Assembly (NCBI GenBank): GCA_902538705.1
Contig: CACBGD010000003.1
Span: 25,554 to 89,553 of the forward strand
Reading direction: 5' to 3'
DNA: 64,000 nt
DNA from: an uncultured SAR86 cluster bacterium
GTDB lineage: Bacteria; Pseudomonadota; Gammaproteobacteria; Magnimaribacterales; D2472
Shown here piece by piece: positions 45,583 to 62,885 of the stretch (position 1 is the stretch's first letter; every line of letters begins with the position of its first letter). The position numbers and the translations under genes are program-made. A model generated the notes under the pieces. The model made no database searches and had not been told where the DNA came from. It saw only the letters and a list, made by a program, of their open reading frames with translations.

Positions 45583-46935
45583 TTAAAAATTAGCGCTTAT
45601 ATCAATTACGATCAAAACAGCAATTGAGAGCTGAAATAGCAAACTCAGCCAGAGTATTAATTTTATGAATAAGCTTGGCTGTAATTCTTCTTGAAGCTTA
45701 TTTGATAAGTAGATTGCGCCTATATTTACGATGGGAAGTCCCATGGCAGCCCAAATACCTGCAATTAACAAAAGGGTTATTGGGTTTGGTAATAAAAAAT
45801 AGAAAACTCCTGAAAAAAATGGCACTAAAAACGCAATGAGTTTTATTAATGTCTTTCGAGTGTTCTCTTTTTCATAAATAAATCCCATTGAAATTAGATA
45901 ATCAGAAATTGTCCTTGTAAATGCAGCTGTTCCTGACAGAAGGGTTGAGTAAAGGATAAAGAATGCAAGCACTATAAAAAGCCACTTTGCCCAGTCACCT
46001 AATACAAGAGAAAACATATTTTGAAGGGCGTTGATGATGTCAACATCCCAAAATGATTGAGTGGCTAATGATTCCTGAAGTTGCGGTAAAGTATTTAAAA
46101 CTCCGGCACCAAGAAAGAAAAAAGGAAGCGTACCTATTGTAATGAAAAAGATAGTTACCCAAACATCAGTTTGCATTGTTCTTATCCAGTTTTTGGTCTC
46201 TTGAATATCTTCAGTATTGCCTTGGGCATAGCCTTTCTCAAGACACCAATAGGTATAAGCCATTATTTCTCCATAACTTATTCCGGTAAAACCAAATACT
46301 GCAAGAGCCAATGGCAAATATTCAAATGGAAGAGAGAAATTTAGACCTGAAAACACTTGTGCAGTGCTTAGTTCATAACTAGTAGATTGCATAGAAAAAG
46401 CAATAACTAATGTTATTAAAGAAAATACTAAAACCATCCCAAGAAGAATGTTCTCGAGAGTTGCGTAAGAACCTCTTATTAATATCAACCAGGTCATTAG
46501 GCATGATAAAACAACCCATGCCTCAATATTTATAGAGGGGAATAAATTTGTTCCAGCCTCTGCAACTGCACCAACTAATCCTCCCATACCAATAATTGCA
46601 GGCAATACTCCCAGAAACATAAACCAGACTAGCCAGGAAGTTGTTTTCCCATTTATATTTGTCTTTGGACCAGGGATTTCTGCGAAAGCTTCAAGAAAGG
46701 TTTTTTTAGTAACTACAACATATCTGCTAATCTCAGCTTGAATAATTGGCTTAGTCCATATGCTTAAGAGGAGCCACCATAAAAGAGTAAATCCAGCTGC
46801 TGCTCCTAAGAGAGGTGTCATTACTATCGAGCCACTCCCAACAACGCTTCCAGTAACTATGGCACTTGGTCCGATAAATTTTAATCTATCAAGAGTTGTT
46901 CGTGGTGCTACTTGCTGAGAATGGTTTTTTTTCAA
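45583..46935 (-). CDS. Nramp-family divalent metal ion transporter
   Basis: IGPSAIVTGSVVGSGSIVMTPLLGAAAGFTLLWWLLLS; multi-TM Nramp-like architecture. Confidence 0.82.
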   Translation of the reverse strand: MKKNHSQQVAPRTTLDRLKFIGPSAIVTGSVVGSGSIVMTPLLGAAAGFTLLWWLLLSIWTKPIIQAEISRYVVVTKKTFLEAFAEIPGPKTNINGKTTSWLVWFMFLGVLPAIIGMGGLVGAVAEAGTNLFPSINIEAWVVLSCLMTWLILIRGSYATLENILLGMVLVFSLITLVIAFSMQSTSYELSTAQVFSGLNFSLPFEYLPLALAVFGFTGISYGEIMAYTYWCLEKGYAQGNTEDIQETKNWIRTMQTDVWVTIFFITIGTLPFFFLGAGVLNTLPQLQESLATQSFWDVDIINALQNMFSLVLGDWAKWLFIVLAFFILYSTLLSGTAAFTRTISDYLISMGFIYEKENTRKTLIKLIAFLVPFFSGVFYFLLPNPITLLLIAGIWAAMGLPIVNIGAIYLSNKLQEELQPSLFIKLILWLSLLFQLSIAVLIVIDISANF

Positions 46936-46963
46936 ATTTATTAAATGAAAGTTTTATTGATTT

Positions 46964-47956
46964 TTACTCGTTTCCAAAAACAGTGTTATGAGTATTATTA
47001 ACTCTCACAAATGTAGTACATTTTGAAAGATCTTTTAATTTATTTGCTCCAACATAGGTACATGCGGATCGAATGCCACTTAGAATATCCTTAATTGTGT
47101 CATCCGCTTTACCTCGGTACTCAACTTCAACTGTTTTACCTTCAGTTCCTCTATAATCATTGTGATTACTATGTCTGGTCATTGCTGATTCTGATGCCAT
47201 TCCGTAAAACTTCATTACTCCATCCTCTAATACACCGTCACACTCATCATGACCTGCTAACATGCCGCCAATCATTACAAAATCTGCTCCTCCAGCAAAA
47301 GCTTTAACAATATCACCAGAATTTGTGCATCCACCATCAGCAATAATATGTGCATTGAGGCCATGTGCAGCATCTGCACATTCAATAACAGCACTTAATT
47401 GTGGATAACCAATACCAGTTTTAATTCTTGTAGTGCAAACTGATCCTGGACCAATACCGACTTTTACAATATCGGCTCCTGCCAAAATCAGCTCTTGAGT
47501 CATATCTGCTGTAACTACATTTCCAGCGGCAATAGTTGCATCTGGACATCTATCTCTGAGCTTCTTTACAGAATCAACGAATTTAATGGTATAACCATTT
47601 GCTACATCAAGACCGATAAAACCTGAGTTAGCTTTTGATAATTTTGATATATCATCTATGCCACCAAACCAACAGATATTCGAGTGCCCTGTCTTAAATT
47701 CATTTGAATTTTTTTTAAGGTGATGTTTTGCTGGACAAGTTATGAGTTTATATTTTGATAAAACTTTGTGCATTGCTGGCGTGCCAATCGTATCCATATT
47801 TGCAGACATGATTGGAATTCCAGTCCATTTTTTTTTACTCCAAAGAAAGCGATGTGATCTTTTAAGTCTTACTTCACCTCTAGAACTCATTGTGGATCTT
47901 TTAGGCCTAATTAAAACATCTGAGTAATCAAGTTTTATATCTTCATTAATTAACAA
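46964..47956 (-). CDS. guaC: GMP reductase
   Basis: LDYSDVLIRPKRSTMSSRGEVRLKR, VKVGIGPGSVCTTRIKTGIGYPQLSAV, MIGGMLAGHDE; TTG start with SD GAGGAGG. Confidence 0.95.
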   Translation of the reverse strand: MLINEDIKLDYSDVLIRPKRSTMSSRGEVRLKRSHRFLWSKKKWTGIPIMSANMDTIGTPAMHKVLSKYKLITCPAKHHLKKNSNEFKTGHSNICWFGGIDDISKLSKANSGFIGLDVANGYTIKFVDSVKKLRDRCPDATIAAGNVVTADMTQELILAGADIVKVGIGPGSVCTTRIKTGIGYPQLSAVIECADAAHGLNAHIIADGGCTNSGDIVKAFAGGADFVMIGGMLAGHDECDGVLEDGVMKFYGMASESAMTRHSNHNDYRGTEGKTVEVEYRGKADDTIKDILSGIRSACTYVGANKLKDLSKCTTFVRVNNTHNTVFGNE

Positions 47957-55699: not shown

Positions 55700-56461
55700 T
55701 TATTTTAAAAATTTATTTTTGTAATCCAGGAAATACTTATCTGATTCTAAATATGTCTCAACGAGCTTTATATGTTGTTTTTCATCCACACCCAATATTG
55801 GTTGATCAACCTCAAAAGCTTCAATTTTGATGTCATTGTCAAGAAATCTCATCATATCAATTGATTCAATTACCTCATGAATCGATGGATCTAGGTCAAT
55901 AAATTTCTGAAGAAACTCTGTTTTAAATCCTATTAGTCCTAATTGTCTAAAGGCTTTATCAGGATTTCCTGGAATAAGTGTCCTACTAAAATTTAAGATT
56001 TCATTTTTATTATTTATTACAGCTTTTACAACATTGAGATCATTGAAATCTTTTTCTGTAATGCAATGAATAAGGTTAACAATTCCATTTTTTGAAATCT
56101 CAGTTCTTTCTATTAGTTGATCAACAACTTTAGGGTCTAATTGGGGTTCATCTCCTTGAAGTAATATTACGTTTTCATAATATTTGTTTTGTTTCTCATA
56201 AATTTCGACGACCTCTCCTGCTCTCTCGGTTGCTCTTTCATGCTTGTCAGACGTCATACAAACCTCAAAATCTAGTTTTTTACATAATTCAAAAATTTCT
56301 TCATCAGGCGTAGCAACAACAAGGTCATCAATTCCAATACAATATTTCGCTCGGTAAAAACAATGAACAATCATTGGAATTCCCAGAATTTCTTCTAATG
56401 GCTTATTCGGGAAACGTGAAGAGGCTAATCGAGCAGGAATGACTGCAAGGGTCTTACTCAT
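55700..56461 (-). CDS. Divergent KdsB-like 3-deoxy-octulosonate cytidylyltransferase
   Basis: MSKTLAVIPARLASSRFPNKPLEEILGIPMI, VVATPDEEI, LLQGDEPQLDP; divergent C-terminal motif ESIDMMRF in place of typical EKLEQLR. Start revised from 56518. Confidence 0.85.
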   Translation of the reverse strand: MSKTLAVIPARLASSRFPNKPLEEILGIPMIVHCFYRAKYCIGIDDLVVATPDEEIFELCKKLDFEVCMTSDKHERATERAGEVVEIYEKQNKYYENVILLQGDEPQLDPKVVDQLIERTEISKNGIVNLIHCITEKDFNDLNVVKAVINNKNEILNFSRTLIPGNPDKAFRQLGLIGFKTEFLQKFIDLDPSIHEVIESIDMMRFLDNDIKIEAFEVDQPILGVDEKQHIKLVETYLESDKYFLDYKNKFLK

Positions 56462-57182
56462 CTCTAAAAGGTATTCTTGCAACATAATCGAGCATTCTAA
56501 TGTCAACTGAAAATGCAATCATGTCATATCCAAGTGATTGTTTCTCGATTAGATCTTTTTTAGATGGCTCAACAACGTGAATACCTCTTTTAATATTATA
56601 TTTTTCAGCAGCCCTCATGATCTTTTTTTCAAGATCTATAAATTCAAGGGTGTCAAACTTACCGGGACTTCCTATTGATGCAGATAGATCATAAGGGCCT
56701 AGAAAATAACCAGTAATATCACTGTCAAAAATGCTTTCAATATTTTCTACGGCTTCTCTTGATTCAATATTAAGATAAAGTTCAATCTGTTCTGCATCAT
56801 CCTTGATGTATTTTTCTTTTTTATCTTTATCCCCATATCCTTGTGCTCTATACAAACCCATGCCGCGAGATCCTGATGGTGGATAAAAACACGCGCTTAT
56901 GGCTTTCTTGACATCTTCAACATTATTAATCATAGGAATAATTATTCCTTTTGCACCAAAATCCAGGATCTTTTTAATTTCAGCAGAATTATTTGATGAA
57001 ACTCTAACAATGGGCTTTACTCCGCATAAATCAATCACTCTTATTAATTTTTCTGCTTGCGTGAGAGAAATAGCAGTATGTTCTAAATCAATAGTTATCC
57101 AATCATAACCAGCACGAGAAAGAATCTCAGCAATAGCCTCGCTGTATATTGTCAACCATGTTCCGTAAGATGTTTTACTCAT
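56454..57182 (-). CDS. HpcH/HpaI aldolase/citrate lyase family protein
   Basis: YDWITIDLEHTAISLTQAEKLIRVI, VRVSSNNSAEIKKILDFGAKGIIIPMINNVEDVKKAI, FLGPYDLSASIG; start at MSKTSYGTW. Confidence 0.9.
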   Translation of the reverse strand: MSKTSYGTWLTIYSEAIAEILSRAGYDWITIDLEHTAISLTQAEKLIRVIDLCGVKPIVRVSSNNSAEIKKILDFGAKGIIIPMINNVEDVKKAISACFYPPSGSRGMGLYRAQGYGDKDKKEKYIKDDAEQIELYLNIESREAVENIESIFDSDITGYFLGPYDLSASIGSPGKFDTLEFIDLEKKIMRAAEKYNIKRGIHVVEPSKKDLIEKQSLGYDMIAFSVDIRMLDYVARIPFRDE

Positions 57183-57186
57183 TTCA

Positions 57187-58101
57187 TTAACTATTTTGGT
57201 CCAGACCCCTAATTGCTGCAAGTCCCATTGATATTACTCCCTCTTCAGTCATGCTTCCTAAGTGAGAAGTCGCGAAGAAGTTTGGAAGATTTAAAAGAGG
57301 CGAATTAAATGCAGGTTCCTCCTCAAAAACATCGAGTGTAGCAAAAGCATTTTCATTGTCTGATAGGAATTTTTCTAGATGCTCCTCATTAATTATGCCA
57401 CCTCTAGAGGTATTTATAATTTTTACATCCTTTTTACATAAACCAAAGAACTTATCATTAATCAAAGAATTTGTTTCCCTTGTCAAAGGCAGATGAATAG
57501 AAATGATGTCTGCTTTTTTTGCAATTTCACTCAAGTCAGTTTGATTAATATCTGTCTGGCCTATTTCATTGATTTCATATACTAAAATATTACAATCAAA
57601 AGGTTTTATTAAATCGTTGAGAAGAGAGCCTATATTTCCAAAGCCTAATATACCAACTGTCTTTTTATATAATTCATTACCTCTTTCTTGACTCCAAGTT
57701 CCATTCTTTATTTTTTGAAGACTGCTATGAGTTCTTCGTAACGAAGTCAAAATATGGGATAAAGCCAATTCGGCGACAGGCCTTCTGTTAACTCCAGGTG
57801 TAAAACCCAATTTAATTCTTCGTTTTTTCAATTCTTGCAAGTCTATATTATTTAATCCTACTCCATACTTACTTAATACTTTTAAGTTAGGTAAATTATC
57901 AAGAATTTCTGAATCAAATCTTTCAAGTCCAACTATAACTTTATCTGCATCATTACAAAAAGAAACTAGGCTCTCTCCAGATAATGACAAACCCTCATTA
58001 TTTAATTTTATTTTTTTATATTTTGACTGTAATTCTTCTATAAGTTTCTCGTTTTTTGAGAATGATCTGGATGTAACCGCAACTAAATCTGATACATTCA
58101 T
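57187..58101 (-). CDS. D-isomer-specific 2-hydroxyacid dehydrogenase (phosphoglycerate dehydrogenase-like)
   Basis: VGILGFGNIGSLLNDLI, IISIHLPLTRETNSLIN, INTSRGGIINEEHLEKFL, LDVFEEEP; ATGA overlap with the upstream gene. Confidence 0.9.
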   Translation of the reverse strand: MNVSDLVAVTSRSFSKNEKLIEELQSKYKKIKLNNEGLSLSGESLVSFCNDADKVIVGLERFDSEILDNLPNLKVLSKYGVGLNNIDLQELKKRRIKLGFTPGVNRRPVAELALSHILTSLRRTHSSLQKIKNGTWSQERGNELYKKTVGILGFGNIGSLLNDLIKPFDCNILVYEINEIGQTDINQTDLSEIAKKADIISIHLPLTRETNSLINDKFFGLCKKDVKIINTSRGGIINEEHLEKFLSDNENAFATLDVFEEEPAFNSPLLNLPNFFATSHLGSMTEEGVISMGLAAIRGLDQNS

Positions 58102-58838
58102 ATGCAATTATTATTTGCAATAACGTCAACCTTAAATTTATTATCATCATATGTCTTGTAATGATAATTTCCACCAGCAGCTTTAATAATTGCAAGACCT
58201 GCGGCAATATCCCATAAAAAAATACCATTTTCTTGATATTGATCAAATTGTCCAGATGCTACATAAGCACAAGACATTGCAGCAGATCCAATCATTCTTA
58301 TTTTTTTCCATTTAGTAAATTCTTTAGCTAAAGCAAGCATAGGTTCATCTTTATAGCTGCCTTTTGCAGGCAATCCAGTTGCAAGAGTTGCTTTAGTTTT
58401 ATCTGAAATATCTGAGACAGATATTGGTTTTGAGTTCATCATAGCAGGAGTTTCAGTACTGCCCTCAAAGATAATATTTCTATTAAAATCATTAATAACA
58501 CCTAAAATAATTTTATTTTCATGGATCAAGGCAATTGATATACAACAAATTGGGAAGTCTCTAGAATAATTTGAAGTACCATCTAGGGGATCTACCACCC
58601 AGAAGCTTGAACCAAGGTTCTCATTTGCTCCAGATTCCTCGGCAAGAATGGGTAGATCTGAGTTCTCTTTTATATATTTTTTAATAATATTTTCAGATTC
58701 AATATCAGCCTGAAGTTTAATATCTCTGCCTTCACTAGAAATTACATCATTTACTAATTTTTTTTTATTTATTAGAAGTTTGGCAGATTGTAATGAAGCT
58801 TTCTTTGCGGTTGAAAGCTCTTTATCAATTTGAATCAT
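58098..58838 (-). CDS. Inositol monophosphatase family phosphatase
   Basis: ILAEESGANENLGSSFWVVDPLDGTSNYSRDFPICCISIAL, FLWDIAAGLAIIKAAGG. Confidence 0.92.
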   Translation of the reverse strand: MIQIDKELSTAKKASLQSAKLLINKKKLVNDVISSEGRDIKLQADIESENIIKKYIKENSDLPILAEESGANENLGSSFWVVDPLDGTSNYSRDFPICCISIALIHENKIILGVINDFNRNIIFEGSTETPAMMNSKPISVSDISDKTKATLATGLPAKGSYKDEPMLALAKEFTKWKKIRMIGSAAMSCAYVASGQFDQYQENGIFLWDIAAGLAIIKAAGGNYHYKTYDDNKFKVDVIANNNCI

Positions 58839-59422
58839 TTTTTAAAATGAGCTCTAAAAAATGAACCAACCAATCCACAAATTACCATATGCAAATCTTC
58901 AGCAGGACCGTACTCACCTATTTTGGTAGGAACATGAATATTCAAATCTGATAGTTCGGAAAGCACTCCGCCATCAAAAGCAGAGAGACCAACAGTACTA
59001 AGATCATTATCTTTTGCCCAGTTAATGGCTTTAATTATATTAGGTGAATTTCCAGATGCCGAAATGGCGACGAGGACATCGCCAGCTTTAGCTTGAGTTT
59101 GGAGCTGTTGAAGAAAAATATTTTCATAGCCATCGTCATTTCCAATTGCTGTTATGACAGCTTGATTATCACATAAACTTATCGCTCTAAAAGGCTTTTC
59201 AAATTGTCGACTTCCAAGAGAAATATCATTGACAAAGTGACTGGCAGTTGATGCACTTCCCCCATTTCCAATAAAGAATATAGTTTTGTTATTTTCTCTT
59301 GTCTCTAAAATAAGCTCTATAAACTTGCTTACATTTTCAATACTTAACTTATCTATAAGAACTTTTAGATAATCAAAATAGTTCTTTGAAAAGTTATTGG
59401 GAGAAGATGCGTCTGTGATCAT
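58835..59422 (-). CDS. SIS-domain phosphosugar isomerase (GmhA-like)
   Basis: IFFIGNGGSASTASHFVNDIS, VLVAISASGNSPNIIKAINWAKDNDLSTVGLSAFDGG, EDLHMVICGLVGSFF. Confidence 0.9.
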   Translation of the reverse strand: MITDASSPNNFSKNYFDYLKVLIDKLSIENVSKFIELILETRENNKTIFFIGNGGSASTASHFVNDISLGSRQFEKPFRAISLCDNQAVITAIGNDDGYENIFLQQLQTQAKAGDVLVAISASGNSPNIIKAINWAKDNDLSTVGLSAFDGGVLSELSDLNIHVPTKIGEYGPAEDLHMVICGLVGSFFRAHFKK

Positions 59423-59423
59423 A

Positions 59424-60440
59424 TTAATAATATTTTCTTTTCCATTCAGGATCAGCTTTATAAATTTTTTCTATAAGATCCATTATTTCAATTGCCTGAT
59501 CAATTGATCCATTTTTTATTTTATCAGAATTACGTACAGCATCTGTAAATCTCTTTATTTCCATATCCCAAGAGATATCTTCATCAAAATTAATGATTTC
59601 TTCTTTGGGTTTACCTTTATCATTATCTGGATCTGCATAAATTATTTTTAAAGTTTCTTCTCCATAACTCTTTGAGCTAGTAAGAAGACCACCTAATATT
59701 AAAGATCCTTTTTTAAGAGTTATATCTAAATTAAAAGTATGTCTCCACTGCGTTGCAGATGAGTGAAGTTGGCCTATGATTCCATCATCATTTTGCATTA
59801 AAACAAAAGCATTATCCTCTACATCAAAATTCCAAAATGTATTTTGGATAATTGAGAATATATTATTAAAACTACCAACAAAATAATTCATTAGATCAAG
59901 CATATGTATGCCTTGATCAAGTAAAATACCACCACCAGATTTTTCCCTATCGGTTCTCCAATCAGTTTGATTAAAACTTATAATGTTTGATTTTCCATAA
60001 ATTCCTTTTAAATTTAAAATCTTTCCCAACTTACCACTGTCAATTATCTTTTTTGCATGAATAACTGAAGAATGGAATCTATGATTAAATCCATACATTA
60101 ACTTCAAATTAGTTTTCTCTAAATACTCTTTAATTGGCATTAATTCAATTAAGGTTTTTGCTGGTGGTTTCTCACAAAAAACATGAAGATTTTTCTTTAG
60201 TCCTAGCAAAGTAGCACTGGCAGCATGATTATTGGGAAGGCTTATAAATAATATATCTAAGTCTTCATTCTTAATAAGGTCTTTATAATCAGAGTAACAA
60301 TTTAAATTTAGAACACTATCCTCATCTTTGAATGAAATATCTGAAAGAGAGGTTACCTCGAAATCATGTATTTTTTTGAGTGCTGCATGCCTCCTTTTGC
60401 CTACTACTCCATAACCGGCAATGCCAACTTTATAAGTCAT
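59424..60440 (-). CDS. Gfo/Idh/MocA family oxidoreductase
   Basis: VGIAGYGVVGKRRHAAL, LHVFCEKPPAKTLIE, GGGILLDQGIHMLDLMNYFVG. Confidence 0.93.
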   Translation of the reverse strand: MTYKVGIAGYGVVGKRRHAALKKIHDFEVTSLSDISFKDEDSVLNLNCYSDYKDLIKNEDLDILFISLPNNHAASATLLGLKKNLHVFCEKPPAKTLIELMPIKEYLEKTNLKLMYGFNHRFHSSVIHAKKIIDSGKLGKILNLKGIYGKSNIISFNQTDWRTDREKSGGGILLDQGIHMLDLMNYFVGSFNNIFSIIQNTFWNFDVEDNAFVLMQNDDGIIGQLHSSATQWRHTFNLDITLKKGSLILGGLLTSSKSYGEETLKIIYADPDNDKGKPKEEIINFDEDISWDMEIKRFTDAVRNSDKIKNGSIDQAIEIMDLIEKIYKADPEWKRKYY

Positions 60441-61582
60441 TAAGAATTTTTGTAAGTTACTCTGTAGATTACATTCGCTCCATCATCTGAGATAAGAATT
60501 GAGCCATCACTCTTTTGAAAAACTGAAGCTGGTCTTCCTAAAACTTTTTCTTGTCCATTGTTTCTTTGCAGCCACCCAGTGACGAAATCTTTCTGATATA
60601 AAAGTTTTCCATCTTCATCAAAGTGAACAGCTATTACTTTATAGCCCACTTTACGAGATCTATTCCATGATCCATGGAGGGTCATGAATAAAGTATTTTT
60701 GTATTTAGGAGGAAATAAATCACCGTCATAAAAAGATAGACCAGTTGGAGCAACATGAGCTCCTAGCTCTAAAATAGGATCAACAAATTCTTCCATATCA
60801 TTTGGTATTTTCTTTGAATACTCTGGATCAGGCACATTCATTGCATGTTTATAAGGATATCCATAAAAAGAATTATTTTTATTTACAACATTTAGCTCAC
60901 AAGCTGGCATATCATCACCCATCCAATCTCTTCCATTATCTCCAAAATAGAGATTATTTGTTTTTGGATGCCAATCAAATCCTACTGTATTCCTTACACC
61001 CCTAGCTACATGCTCCCACTCTCCTCCATTCAATCTCATGATAGAAGCATATCTTTTATCAAAGTTATACTTTTCTTCCATAGATGGATTACAAATATTA
61101 CATGGCGCACCAACTGGAACATACAACTTGTCGTCAGGACCAAAATCAATCCATTTCCATCCATGCCAAGTATCTGATGGCAAATTATCTGTAACTAAGA
61201 CTTTTTTGGGCATTGCTGATGAATTTTTTAAAACATTATCAATGTTTGATATTTTCCAAATTGAGTTTACTTCCGAAAAATAAAGGTCTCCTTTGTGATA
61301 AGTAACGCCAGTGGCATTACTAAGACCTTTGGCTATAACTCTTCTATTTTTATTTGTATCAATTACAGTAATCTTTCCACTACTTCTTGAGCCAACAAAA
61401 ATGTTTCCACCGCTACTTTCAGCAATTTGTCTCGGTGTATCTATTTCATCAATGAATATTTCTACCTTGAAGCCATCTTCAACTTTGAGACTTTTTAAAA
61501 TTGATGCATTATCTGCAAAAAAGTCTAGAGAAAAAGTTATAATAAATAGGTATAAAAAGTACTTATAATTTAGAATCTTCAT
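60440..61582 (-). CDS. Exported PQQ-type sugar (sorbosone/glucose) dehydrogenase-like beta-propeller
   Basis: Signal peptide MKILNYKYFLYLFIITFSLDFFADN; VEIFIDEIDTPRQIAES, NTVGFDWHPKTNNLYFGDNGRDWMGDD, FMTLHGSWNRSRKVGYKV; start revised from 61684. Confidence 0.87.
   Translation of the reverse strand: MKILNYKYFLYLFIITFSLDFFADNASILKSLKVEDGFKVEIFIDEIDTPRQIAESSGGNIFVGSRSSGKITVIDTNKNRRVIAKGLSNATGVTYHKGDLYFSEVNSIWKISNIDNVLKNSSAMPKKVLVTDNLPSDTWHGWKWIDFGPDDKLYVPVGAPCNICNPSMEEKYNFDKRYASIMRLNGGEWEHVARGVRNTVGFDWHPKTNNLYFGDNGRDWMGDDMPACELNVVNKNNSFYGYPYKHAMNVPDPEYSKKIPNDMEEFVDPILELGAHVAPTGLSFYDGDLFPPKYKNTLFMTLHGSWNRSRKVGYKVIAVHFDEDGKLLYQKDFVTGWLQRNNGQEKVLGRPASVFQKSDGSILISDDGANVIYRVTYKNS
61564..61569 (+). 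promoter_or_regulatory. Candidate -10 (TATAAT) for the WecA-like gene
   Basis: TATAAT ending 11 nt before the ATG at 61581. Confidence 0.35.
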
Positions 61583-62885
61583 GCTTAAAATTATACCAGC
61601 CGCCCTATTCTTTTTGAGCTTTTTCGCTTCATTGGTTTCAAATGCTCTTTTGCGACAAATATCAAAAAAATATAACATCCTCATCGATGCACCTGATAAG
61701 AAAAGAAAATTTCATAAAAATCCAACTCCTCTTACTGGAGGTCTTGGGATTAGCTTTGGAATAATTTTTAGTGGCATATTTCTGATCTTTTTAACACAAG
61801 ACAATATGGATATAAGTTTCAGTTCCGAAAATTATAGTGCCGTTAATCAAGAGGTTTTAAATGAGGGGGGTGGAATTACACATGAGATTAATATGCCAGA
61901 TGATAATAGTATTAAAATTAAAGTATTAAATGACGAAGAACTTTTGGTGACGTTACCTGATGGCACAAAGCAAATTTATAAAATTTCAGATAACGGCGAT
62001 ACATCCAGTGTGATTCGAAAAGAAATTAATGAAAATAGTTTTTCAATCTCTAAATTTGCTATAGGTTTATTTTCATTTACGATCTTAATTCAATTAATTA
62101 TGCTAATTGATGATCTTTGGGGAATTAAAGAAAAAAATAAACTAATTATCCAAGCTATTTTTGCTTTATGCCTGATCCTGCTTACTGATGTTTACATTAA
62201 AGATTTAGGAAATCTGTTTGGTTTTGGTGAAATTAATATTGGGTTATTTGGTATTCCATTCACAATATTTTGTGTAGTAGGAATGATGAATGCTTTTAAT
62301 TATATTGATGGGCTTAATGGTCTATGTGCAAGCTTTTGTTTAGTTTGTTTAATGTCTGTTGTTTACTTTTTTAATGCCTTCAATAATCCAAGTTTCTTAC
62401 CTTTGGTTTTACCAGTTGGTGCAATAGTTGGATTTCTTATGTATAACCTAGGTATATTTGGCGACAAAAGAAATGTCTTTCTTGGAGATAATGGCTCTCA
62501 AGCCTTAGGGTTTCTTTGTTTGTGGGTTTTGGTATATTTCAGCCAATATGATGAGTATAAGTTTGCTCCTGTAACTGCTATGTGGCTTGTCTCAATCCTG
62601 TTTATGGATGCTCTTAGGGTATTAACAACAAGAGCATTAAATGGTTTGAGAGGAGAAGATCTTTTTAGAGCAAGAAGAGATCACATACATCATAAGCTCC
62701 AGGATTATGGTTTGTCTAATGAGGTTATTTATTCAATCTTAATTTTGTCAACTGGGCTTTTATCTACAATAGGATTAGTGCTAAATAATATTTTTTCTGA
62801 AAATCACTACTATTCTTTCTATATTTTTGTTGTAGTATGGATATGTTTTCATATTGTAGTTAATAAAATCCCTAAAAATGTTTAA
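61581..62885 (+). CDS. WecA/MraY-family undecaprenyl-phosphate sugar-1-phosphate transferase
   Basis: PDKKRKFHKNPTPLTGGLGI, LIDDLWGI, NAFNYIDGLNGLCA, FLGDNGSQALGF, RARRDHIHHKL. Confidence 0.93.
   Translation: MLKIIPAALFFLSFFASLVSNALLRQISKKYNILIDAPDKKRKFHKNPTPLTGGLGISFGIIFSGIFLIFLTQDNMDISFSSENYSAVNQEVLNEGGGITHEINMPDDNSIKIKVLNDEELLVTLPDGTKQIYKISDNGDTSSVIRKEINENSFSISKFAIGLFSFTILIQLIMLIDDLWGIKEKNKLIIQAIFALCLILLTDVYIKDLGNLFGFGEINIGLFGIPFTIFCVVGMMNAFNYIDGLNGLCASFCLVCLMSVVYFFNAFNNPSFLPLVLPVGAIVGFLMYNLGIFGDKRNVFLGDNGSQALGFLCLWVLVYFSQYDEYKFAPVTAMWLVSILFMDALRVLTTRALNGLRGEDLFRARRDHIHHKLQDYGLSNEVIYSILILSTGLLSTIGLVLNNIFSENHYYSFYIFVVVWICFHIVVNKIPKNV
61590..61598 (-). promoter_or_regulatory. Candidate extended -10 (TGGTATAAT) 7 nt upstream of the sugar dehydrogenase ATG
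   Basis: Reverse complement: ctggtataattttaagcATG, i.e. TGGTATAAT-N7-ATG. Confidence 0.5.

Follow-up and report, generated by a model that had tools for sequence, protein, structure and literature searches.

We analyzed a stretch of 64,000 nucleotides (the window) from an uncultured SAR86 cluster bacterium, whose genome assembly (G000) measures 998 kb and is approximately 80% complete. Between positions 55,700 and 60,440 the window holds a cassette of six genes, all on the minus strand, that encode a divergent KdsB-like cytidylyltransferase (here KdsB2), an HpcH/HpaI-type aldolase (HpcH), a D-isomer 2-hydroxyacid dehydrogenase (2HADH), an IMPase-family phosphatase, a GmhA-like SIS isomerase and a Gfo/Idh oxidoreductase (Table 1). 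An initial annotation of the sequence had described six coupled open reading frames of these families, with gaps of 1–4 nt and overlaps of 4–8 nt, and our analysis confirms that description. The kdsB and hpcH genes overlap by 8 nt, hpcH is separated from the 2HADH gene by 4 nt, the 2HADH–IMPase and IMPase–SIS pairs each overlap by 4 nt and a single nucleotide lies between the SIS and Gfo/Idh genes. The default starts of kdsB, hpcH and the 2HADH gene were too long, and likely ATG starts were used for the coordinates. Family searches revealed no KdsA or NeuB family synthase among the open reading frames of the cassette.

Table 1. Genes of the KdsB2 cassette and the gene directly upstream (positions in the window)
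Feature	Position	Strand	Basis
KdsB2: divergent KdsB-family cytidylyltransferase, predicted CMP-ulosonate synthetase	55700..56461	-	PF02348, NF003952; separate clade; altered substrate motif
HpcH/HpaI-family metal-dependent 2-keto acid aldolase, predicted ulosonate C-C bond maker	56454..57182	-	PF03328; conserved E34, H35, R60, E140, D165
2HADH, phosphoglycerate/hydroxypyruvate dehydrogenase-like, putative role	57187..58101	-	PF02826/PF00389
IMPase-family sugar phosphatase	58098..58838	-	PF00459; nearest solved relatives are inositol-1-monophosphatases
SIS-domain sugar-phosphate isomerase, GmhA-like, own subfamily	58835..59422	-	GEYGPxED signature; Asp/Asn at presumed GmhA Glu site
Gfo/Idh/MocA oxidoreductase	59424..60440	-	PF01408/PF22725; solved relatives
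GSDH-family gene (glucose/sorbosone dehydrogenase-like), upstream of cassette	60440..61684	-	Translational coupling

The odd motifs that the initial annotation had pointed out in the KdsB-like protein (HERATER and ESIDMMRF) are real and are conserved within a clade. KdsB2 retains the invariant residues Arg10, Lys19, Asp103 and Asp225, together with the catalytic and nucleotide-binding core of canonical KdsB (IPAR, KPL, QGDEP and a C-terminal VD). Its substrate motifs are not the canonical ones: in the protein of the window, RQLGLIGF and ESIDMMRF replace RHIGxYxYR and EKLEQLR. Throughout most of the clade HxSGTDR has become H-x-R-(A/C)-(S/T)-(D/E)-R and EKLEQLR has become ES(I/V)DMMR, and in nearly all members RHIGxYxYR has become (R/K)Qx(G/C)xI, with RH changed to (R/K)Q and Tyr to Ile; partial exceptions, both on long branches, are L164 and a third SAR86 copy in L089. 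Since RHIGVYAYR is named as a substrate-binding motif of Pseudomonas aeruginosa KdsB (PMC7717453), the alteration of this motif suggests a changed sugar, and KdsB2 likely acts on a sugar other than 3-deoxy-manno-octulosonate (Kdo). In a tree of 62 KdsB rows, KdsB2 and its relatives from other bacteria form a clade of their own with 28 rows (support 98/95), outside of which lie KdsB of E. coli, Haemophilus and Acinetobacter, KpsU, most canonical KdsB proteins of SAR86 and those of other Pseudomonadota. The divergent KdsB, for which the initial annotation had proposed a phylogeny as a check, thus stands apart from the reference Kdo enzymes in this tree. A few divergent SAR86 KdsBs (L024, L028 and L030) adjoin the clade in the tree. 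Two unannotated phage records match the KdsB2 relative from locus L124.

The aldolase belongs to the HpcH_HpaI superfamily (Pfam, 109.5 bits against a cut-off of 25) and keeps Glu34/His35, Arg60, Glu140 and Asp165, which are the metal, base and keto-acid-binding residues of HpaI; they correspond to the metal ligands and the catalytic His and Arg reported in HpaI enzymes (PMC8560999). Its nearest solved enzymes are the HpaI, KDR and KDG aldolases. It scores 145 bits with the HpaI equivalog TIGR02311, for which the cut-off is 368.8, and its gene lies among glycan genes, so that a dedicated aromatic-catabolism enzyme, the outcome that the initial annotation had named as fatal to its proposal, was not what we found. 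HpaI of Acinetobacter baumannii favors condensation over cleavage approximately 40-fold (PMC8560999), and SwHKA, a sequence relative of the cassette aldolase within the HpcH family, binds and uses hydroxypyruvate (PMC10099721).

For 2HADH the nearest solved relatives are phosphoglycerate dehydrogenase and glyoxylate reductase. We considered whether it could be the only SerA of the genome and rejected this, because a separate SerA-like gene at G000:C14:5471-6595 matches the C-terminal end of the phosphoglycerate dehydrogenase model. The SIS protein scores 111.5 bits with the GmhA equivalog TIGR00441 (cut-off 209.45) and is thus not assigned to GmhA. We take the catalytic residues of GmhA to be Glu65 and His180 (E. 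coli numbering); on these presumed site positions, HFAEEL of GmhA reads HFVNDI in the protein of the window, with the His kept. At the position of the Glu pair of GmhA the SIS subfamily has Asp/Asn, and its signature is GEYGPxED. The earlier suggestion that this isomerase makes an aldose phosphate remains plausible, although the subfamily departs from GmhA at the presumed catalytic Glu.

KdsB matches among 107 SAR86-family genomes fall into two sets, KdsB2 (42–60% identity) and canonical KdsB (mostly about 25–37%), and the KdsB2 set is found in 21 of these genomes, G000 included. The block kdsB2-hpcH-2HADH-IMPase is present in 20/20 cassette-bearing relatives, with Gfo/Idh in place in 18 and SIS in 13 of them. 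The genes thus stay together in SAR86, as the synteny check suggested by the initial annotation was meant to establish, and all six also occur in two unrelated genomes. This retention of gene content, while the KdsB2 proteins themselves have diverged to 42–60% identity, together with recurrence in unrelated bacteria, argues that the grouping is not due to chance. The only two loci with neither Gfo/Idh nor SIS (G017 and G050) come from genomes in which another Gfo/Idh (51–52% identical) lies beside another SIS elsewhere, in glycan clusters. In a spot check, all seven of the cassette genomes without the cassette SIS had another GmhA-like SIS, and four SIS-containing ones did not. A different SAR86 glycan cluster (L089:9913-12919, genome G030) contains an HMGL-type aldolase, a HAD phosphatase and a third divergent KdsB, and is possibly another aldolase-based ulosonate pathway.

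Beyond SAR86, when the HpcH alignment was searched across the class (E <= 1e-50), only four other genomes among 369 gave a match. Three of these carry related gene groups: KdsB2-HpcH-2HADH-epimerase-HAD-6PGL in G428 (L124), 2HADH-epimerase-HAD-HpcH plus KdsB2 in G443 (L126) and 2HADH-epimerase-HAD-HpcH-6PGL in G122 (L125), with no KdsB2 in view in the last; the fourth match (G371, L127) is without such gene context. A phylum search with KdsB2 gave loci L159 to L163. All six genes are present in two unrelated Pseudomonadota (G590, L160; G531, L162), five of them in a further member of the phylum (G487, L161), HpcH, KdsB2, 2HADH, an epimerase and a HAD phosphatase in G582 (L159), and HpcH and KdsB2 in G625 (L163). 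Cassette genes lie within 1.5 kb of the kdsB gene at seven of eight loci with a KdsB2-type KdsB, as compared with 0/21 canonical loci, and the sole KdsB2-type locus without nearby cassette genes (L129) is at a contig end. An Acuticoccus plasmid carries in a row genes for HpcH, an acylneuraminate cytidylyltransferase, a phosphoglycerate dehydrogenase, a HAD hydrolase and an oxidoreductase. This pattern of recurrence points to HpcH, 2HADH, phosphatase and CMP-transferase as the stable core, to which exchangeable sugar-shaping genes appear to be added.

Two variations on these gene groups were also seen. In L164 (9228-14426), KdsB2, Gfo/Idh, SIS and 2HADH are accompanied by a dehydroquinate-synthase-like cyclase and an SDR protein in place of HpcH. 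A methyltransferase-like protein with an N-terminal CPxC zinc ribbon lies beside the KdsB2 module in five loci (L075:8099-9130; L126:8021-8998; L160:1702-2724; L161:13584-14588; L162:7101-8123), and the L161 copy matches Methyltransf_23; its recurrence suggests that outside SAR86 the final sugar may be methylated.

Most SAR86 relatives possess the canonical Kdo enzymes. KdsA is above cut-off in 31 of 33 tested genomes, WaaA was found in 31 of 33, and at least 14 of the 20 other genomes that carry the cassette encode a full canonical KdsB; the cassette is therefore not the Kdo pathway of these relatives. The second, housekeeping kdsB that the initial annotation had anticipated therefore exists in the relatives, but the G000 assembly shows KdsB2 alone. 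WaaA was not found in that assembly, nor was a close copy of the MsbA-like gene that adjoins canonical kdsB in genus mates, and the KdsA gene is truncated by the end of a contig; most simply, then, the missing kdsB reflects an assembly gap, not a loss. We had considered a real absence of the housekeeping gene in G000 and dropped it, given that its MsbA-like neighbor is likewise missing.

A gene of the ELM1 family (PF06258) adjoins kdsB2 in most SAR86 relatives, and PF06258 matches were obtained in all 33 SAR86 genomes tested. One member of this family, KdoT of A. baumannii, uses CMP-Kdo as the donor for Kdo transfer in vitro and has an SRRT motif that is important for its function (PMC12856342); most SAR86 ELM1 proteins keep this motif as SRRT or SRRS. 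The SAR86 proteins form two groups in a tree. The first occurs in genomes both with and without the cassette and is, from its distribution, likely a general protein; occurring in nearly every sampled SAR86 genome, it is a candidate for the KdoT of the lineage. The second is present in 14 of 15 sampled cassette-positive genomes versus 2 of 18 cassette-negative ones (Fisher p = 2e-6, by a test that ignores relatedness). The second-type ELM1 of G000 is encoded at G000:C1:46020 beside a GT4 gene, the pair spanning approximately 45900-47950 of G000:C1 (L087:9898-11944) in an arrangement like that of Acinetobacter kdoT-gnaT. The same ELM1 type is present in three cassette-positive relatives that lack a cassette-linked ELM1 (L092, L093 and L096).

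Judging from these sequence comparisons, we consider it likely that the cassette is a module that builds and CMP-activates a non-Kdo 2-ulosonic acid for a surface glycan and has a KdoT-like transferase of its own. The proposal of an aldolase-based, non-standard ulosonic acid pathway made in the initial annotation is thereby supported as a hypothesis at the level of the pathway, in that the gene set recurs and KdsB2 is a second, separate copy in relatives. In such a pathway the SIS isomerase and the Gfo/Idh oxidoreductase would shape a sugar phosphate, and the IMPase would take the phosphate off the sugar or off the keto-acid donor. The aldolase, as its family and conserved active site suggest, would join a 2-keto acid (pyruvate or hydroxypyruvate) to an aldose, replacing the phosphoenolpyruvate (PEP)-dependent step of KdsA or NeuB, with 2HADH perhaps supplying or adjusting the keto acid. 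KdsB2, with its family membership, conserved catalytic residues and altered sugar pocket, would make the CMP-ulosonate, which the second ELM1/KdoT-family glycosyltransferase would transfer, probably to lipooligosaccharide, as KdoT biochemistry and the co-occurrence of the genes suggest. A more speculative version, which we put forward only tentatively, is that the core makes its own donor: 2HADH would convert 3-phosphoglycerate to phosphohydroxypyruvate, the phosphatase would yield hydroxypyruvate and HpcH would condense this with an aldose, giving de novo a 3-hydroxy (not 3-deoxy), Ko-like 2-ulosonate that is then CMP-activated. SwHKA, the relative of the cassette aldolase, uses hydroxypyruvate as well.

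Several observations weigh against the proposed ulosonate module. The KdsB2 relatives in L072, L074 and L075 have 2HADH and no HpcH in view, and NeuB-like synthases are encoded in L071 and L072, so that an aldolase is not necessarily the step before KdsB2 in every case. Not all of the operons within SAR86 itself contain Gfo/Idh and SIS. The association of the second ELM1 with the cassette is partly a matter of shared ancestry, and no ELM1 lies beside the cassette in G000, where only one is present elsewhere. In G052 and G009 the flanking locus has IMPase and ELM1 without the KdsB2/HpcH/2HADH cassette, and the G052 locus suggests that IMPase and ELM1 could have been present there before the pathway.

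Three other explanations were weighed. The cassette could be an extra route to ordinary Kdo, with the aldolase making it from arabinose and pyruvate and KdsB2 being a divergent CMP-Kdo synthetase that boosts surface Kdo. NCBIfam does call KdsB2 a 3-deoxy-manno-octulosonate cytidylyltransferase (NF003952, 224 bits versus 193; TIGR00466, 161.4 versus 155.2), and the linked transferase is of the Kdo-transferring KdoT family. However, canonical KdsA and KdsB are already present in relatives, the substrate-pocket motifs are altered in nearly all of the KdsB2 clade, Kdo synthesis needs neither 2HADH nor Gfo/Idh, and the SIS protein is of another subfamily than GmhA and has no family match as an arabinose-phosphate isomerase; we therefore regard this route as unlikely. 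The preformed Kdo might instead be modified, its oxidation by the oxidoreductases leading to a Kdo8N- or Kdn-like sugar that KdsB2 activates, with the aldolase in a side role. In L072 (3279-6633) a KdsB2 relative does have an aminotransferase, a NeuB-like synthase and an iron alcohol dehydrogenase in its vicinity, a group that resembles the Kdo8N genes. Yet neither an aminotransferase nor an iron alcohol dehydrogenase belongs to the SAR86 cassette, and none was seen in the modules of L160 to L162, and the aldolase and phosphatase that recur with KdsB2 would be superfluous, which makes a Kdo-modifying route rather improbable.

Least expected on the available evidence is a sugar-acid catabolic operon in which the aldolase would break down 2-keto-3-deoxy acids, the dehydrogenases would supply central metabolism and the KdsB would be a nucleotidyltransferase that is out of place or has been put to another use. 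The kinship of HpcH with HpaI, KDR and KDG aldolases would fit, as would the aldehyde dehydrogenase and class II aldolase genes that adjoin the cassette. But these two genes persist where the cassette is absent and are hence unrelated neighbors (for the same reason we rejected them as members of the pathway), neither a transporter nor a regulator was seen in the operon, and in unrelated bacteria the aldolase is repeatedly accompanied by KdsB2, inside glycan clusters. A catabolic role is thus very improbable.

The proposed ulosonate module shares with the canonical Kdo pathway (KdsD, KdsA, KdsC, KdsB and WaaA) isomerase and phosphatase steps and, at its end, a KdsB-fold CMP-transferase and a dedicated ulosonate transferase. 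It differs in having a class II pyruvate-type aldolase for the PEP-dependent KdsA, a GmhA-like SIS for KdsD and an IMPase or HAD protein for KdsC, as well as an additional 2HADH and Gfo/Idh, the changed sugar motif of KdsB2 and coexistence with the canonical pathway in relatives. Its likeness to the KdoT system of A. baumannii (PMC12856342) consists in the ELM1-family glycosyltransferase with SRRT/SRRS in most SAR86 members and in the pairing with a second gene, GnaT in Acinetobacter and a GT4 gene in G000; in SAR86, by contrast, there is a second ELM1 paralogue whose occurrence follows that of the KdsB2 cassette and whose donor is predicted to be non-Kdo. As in the sialic, legionaminic and pseudaminic acid pathways (NeuB plus NeuA type), an ulosonic acid would be made and CMP-activated, and the acylneuraminate-type CMP-transferase beside the HpcH module of the Acuticoccus plasmid adds to this likeness, but NeuB is lacking and the C-C bond would be formed by the HpcH aldolase. 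HpcH has the fold family, metal ligands and catalytic His/Arg of the HpaI, YfaU, GarL and SwHKA aldolases, yet it falls far under the curated cut-offs of the named equivalogs and lies in a context of glycan synthesis, not of aromatic or sugar-acid breakdown.

All CMP-ulosonate pathways known to us use a PEP-dependent synthase. No published description of the module was found in the open-access literature, which is weak evidence of absence, and a paper on the Pelagibacter O-chain does not mention it. If correct, our proposal would widen bacterial surface-sugar chemistry by a module that is built on a reversible keto-acid aldolase and recurs in Pseudomonadota, would account for a group of 'KdsB' genes that currently carry the annotation of Kdo enzymes and would provide a candidate second donor for the ELM1 family, which was recently shown to include a Kdo transferase. 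SAR86 bacteria are abundant in surface seawater, and surface glycans there influence how cells interact with phages and grazers. The gene set is compact and could be rebuilt in vitro.

Upstream of the cassette, the GSDH-family gene overlaps the Gfo/Idh gene by 1 nt and so is coupled as well. It is still present in two loci without the cassette (L050 and L095) and thus is probably outside the pathway. Divergent from the operon, at 61581-62885 on the plus strand of the window, is a gene for a WecA-like GT4 transferase; the GT4/WecA profile match begins near residue 155 of the protein, with a long N-terminal part outside the profile.

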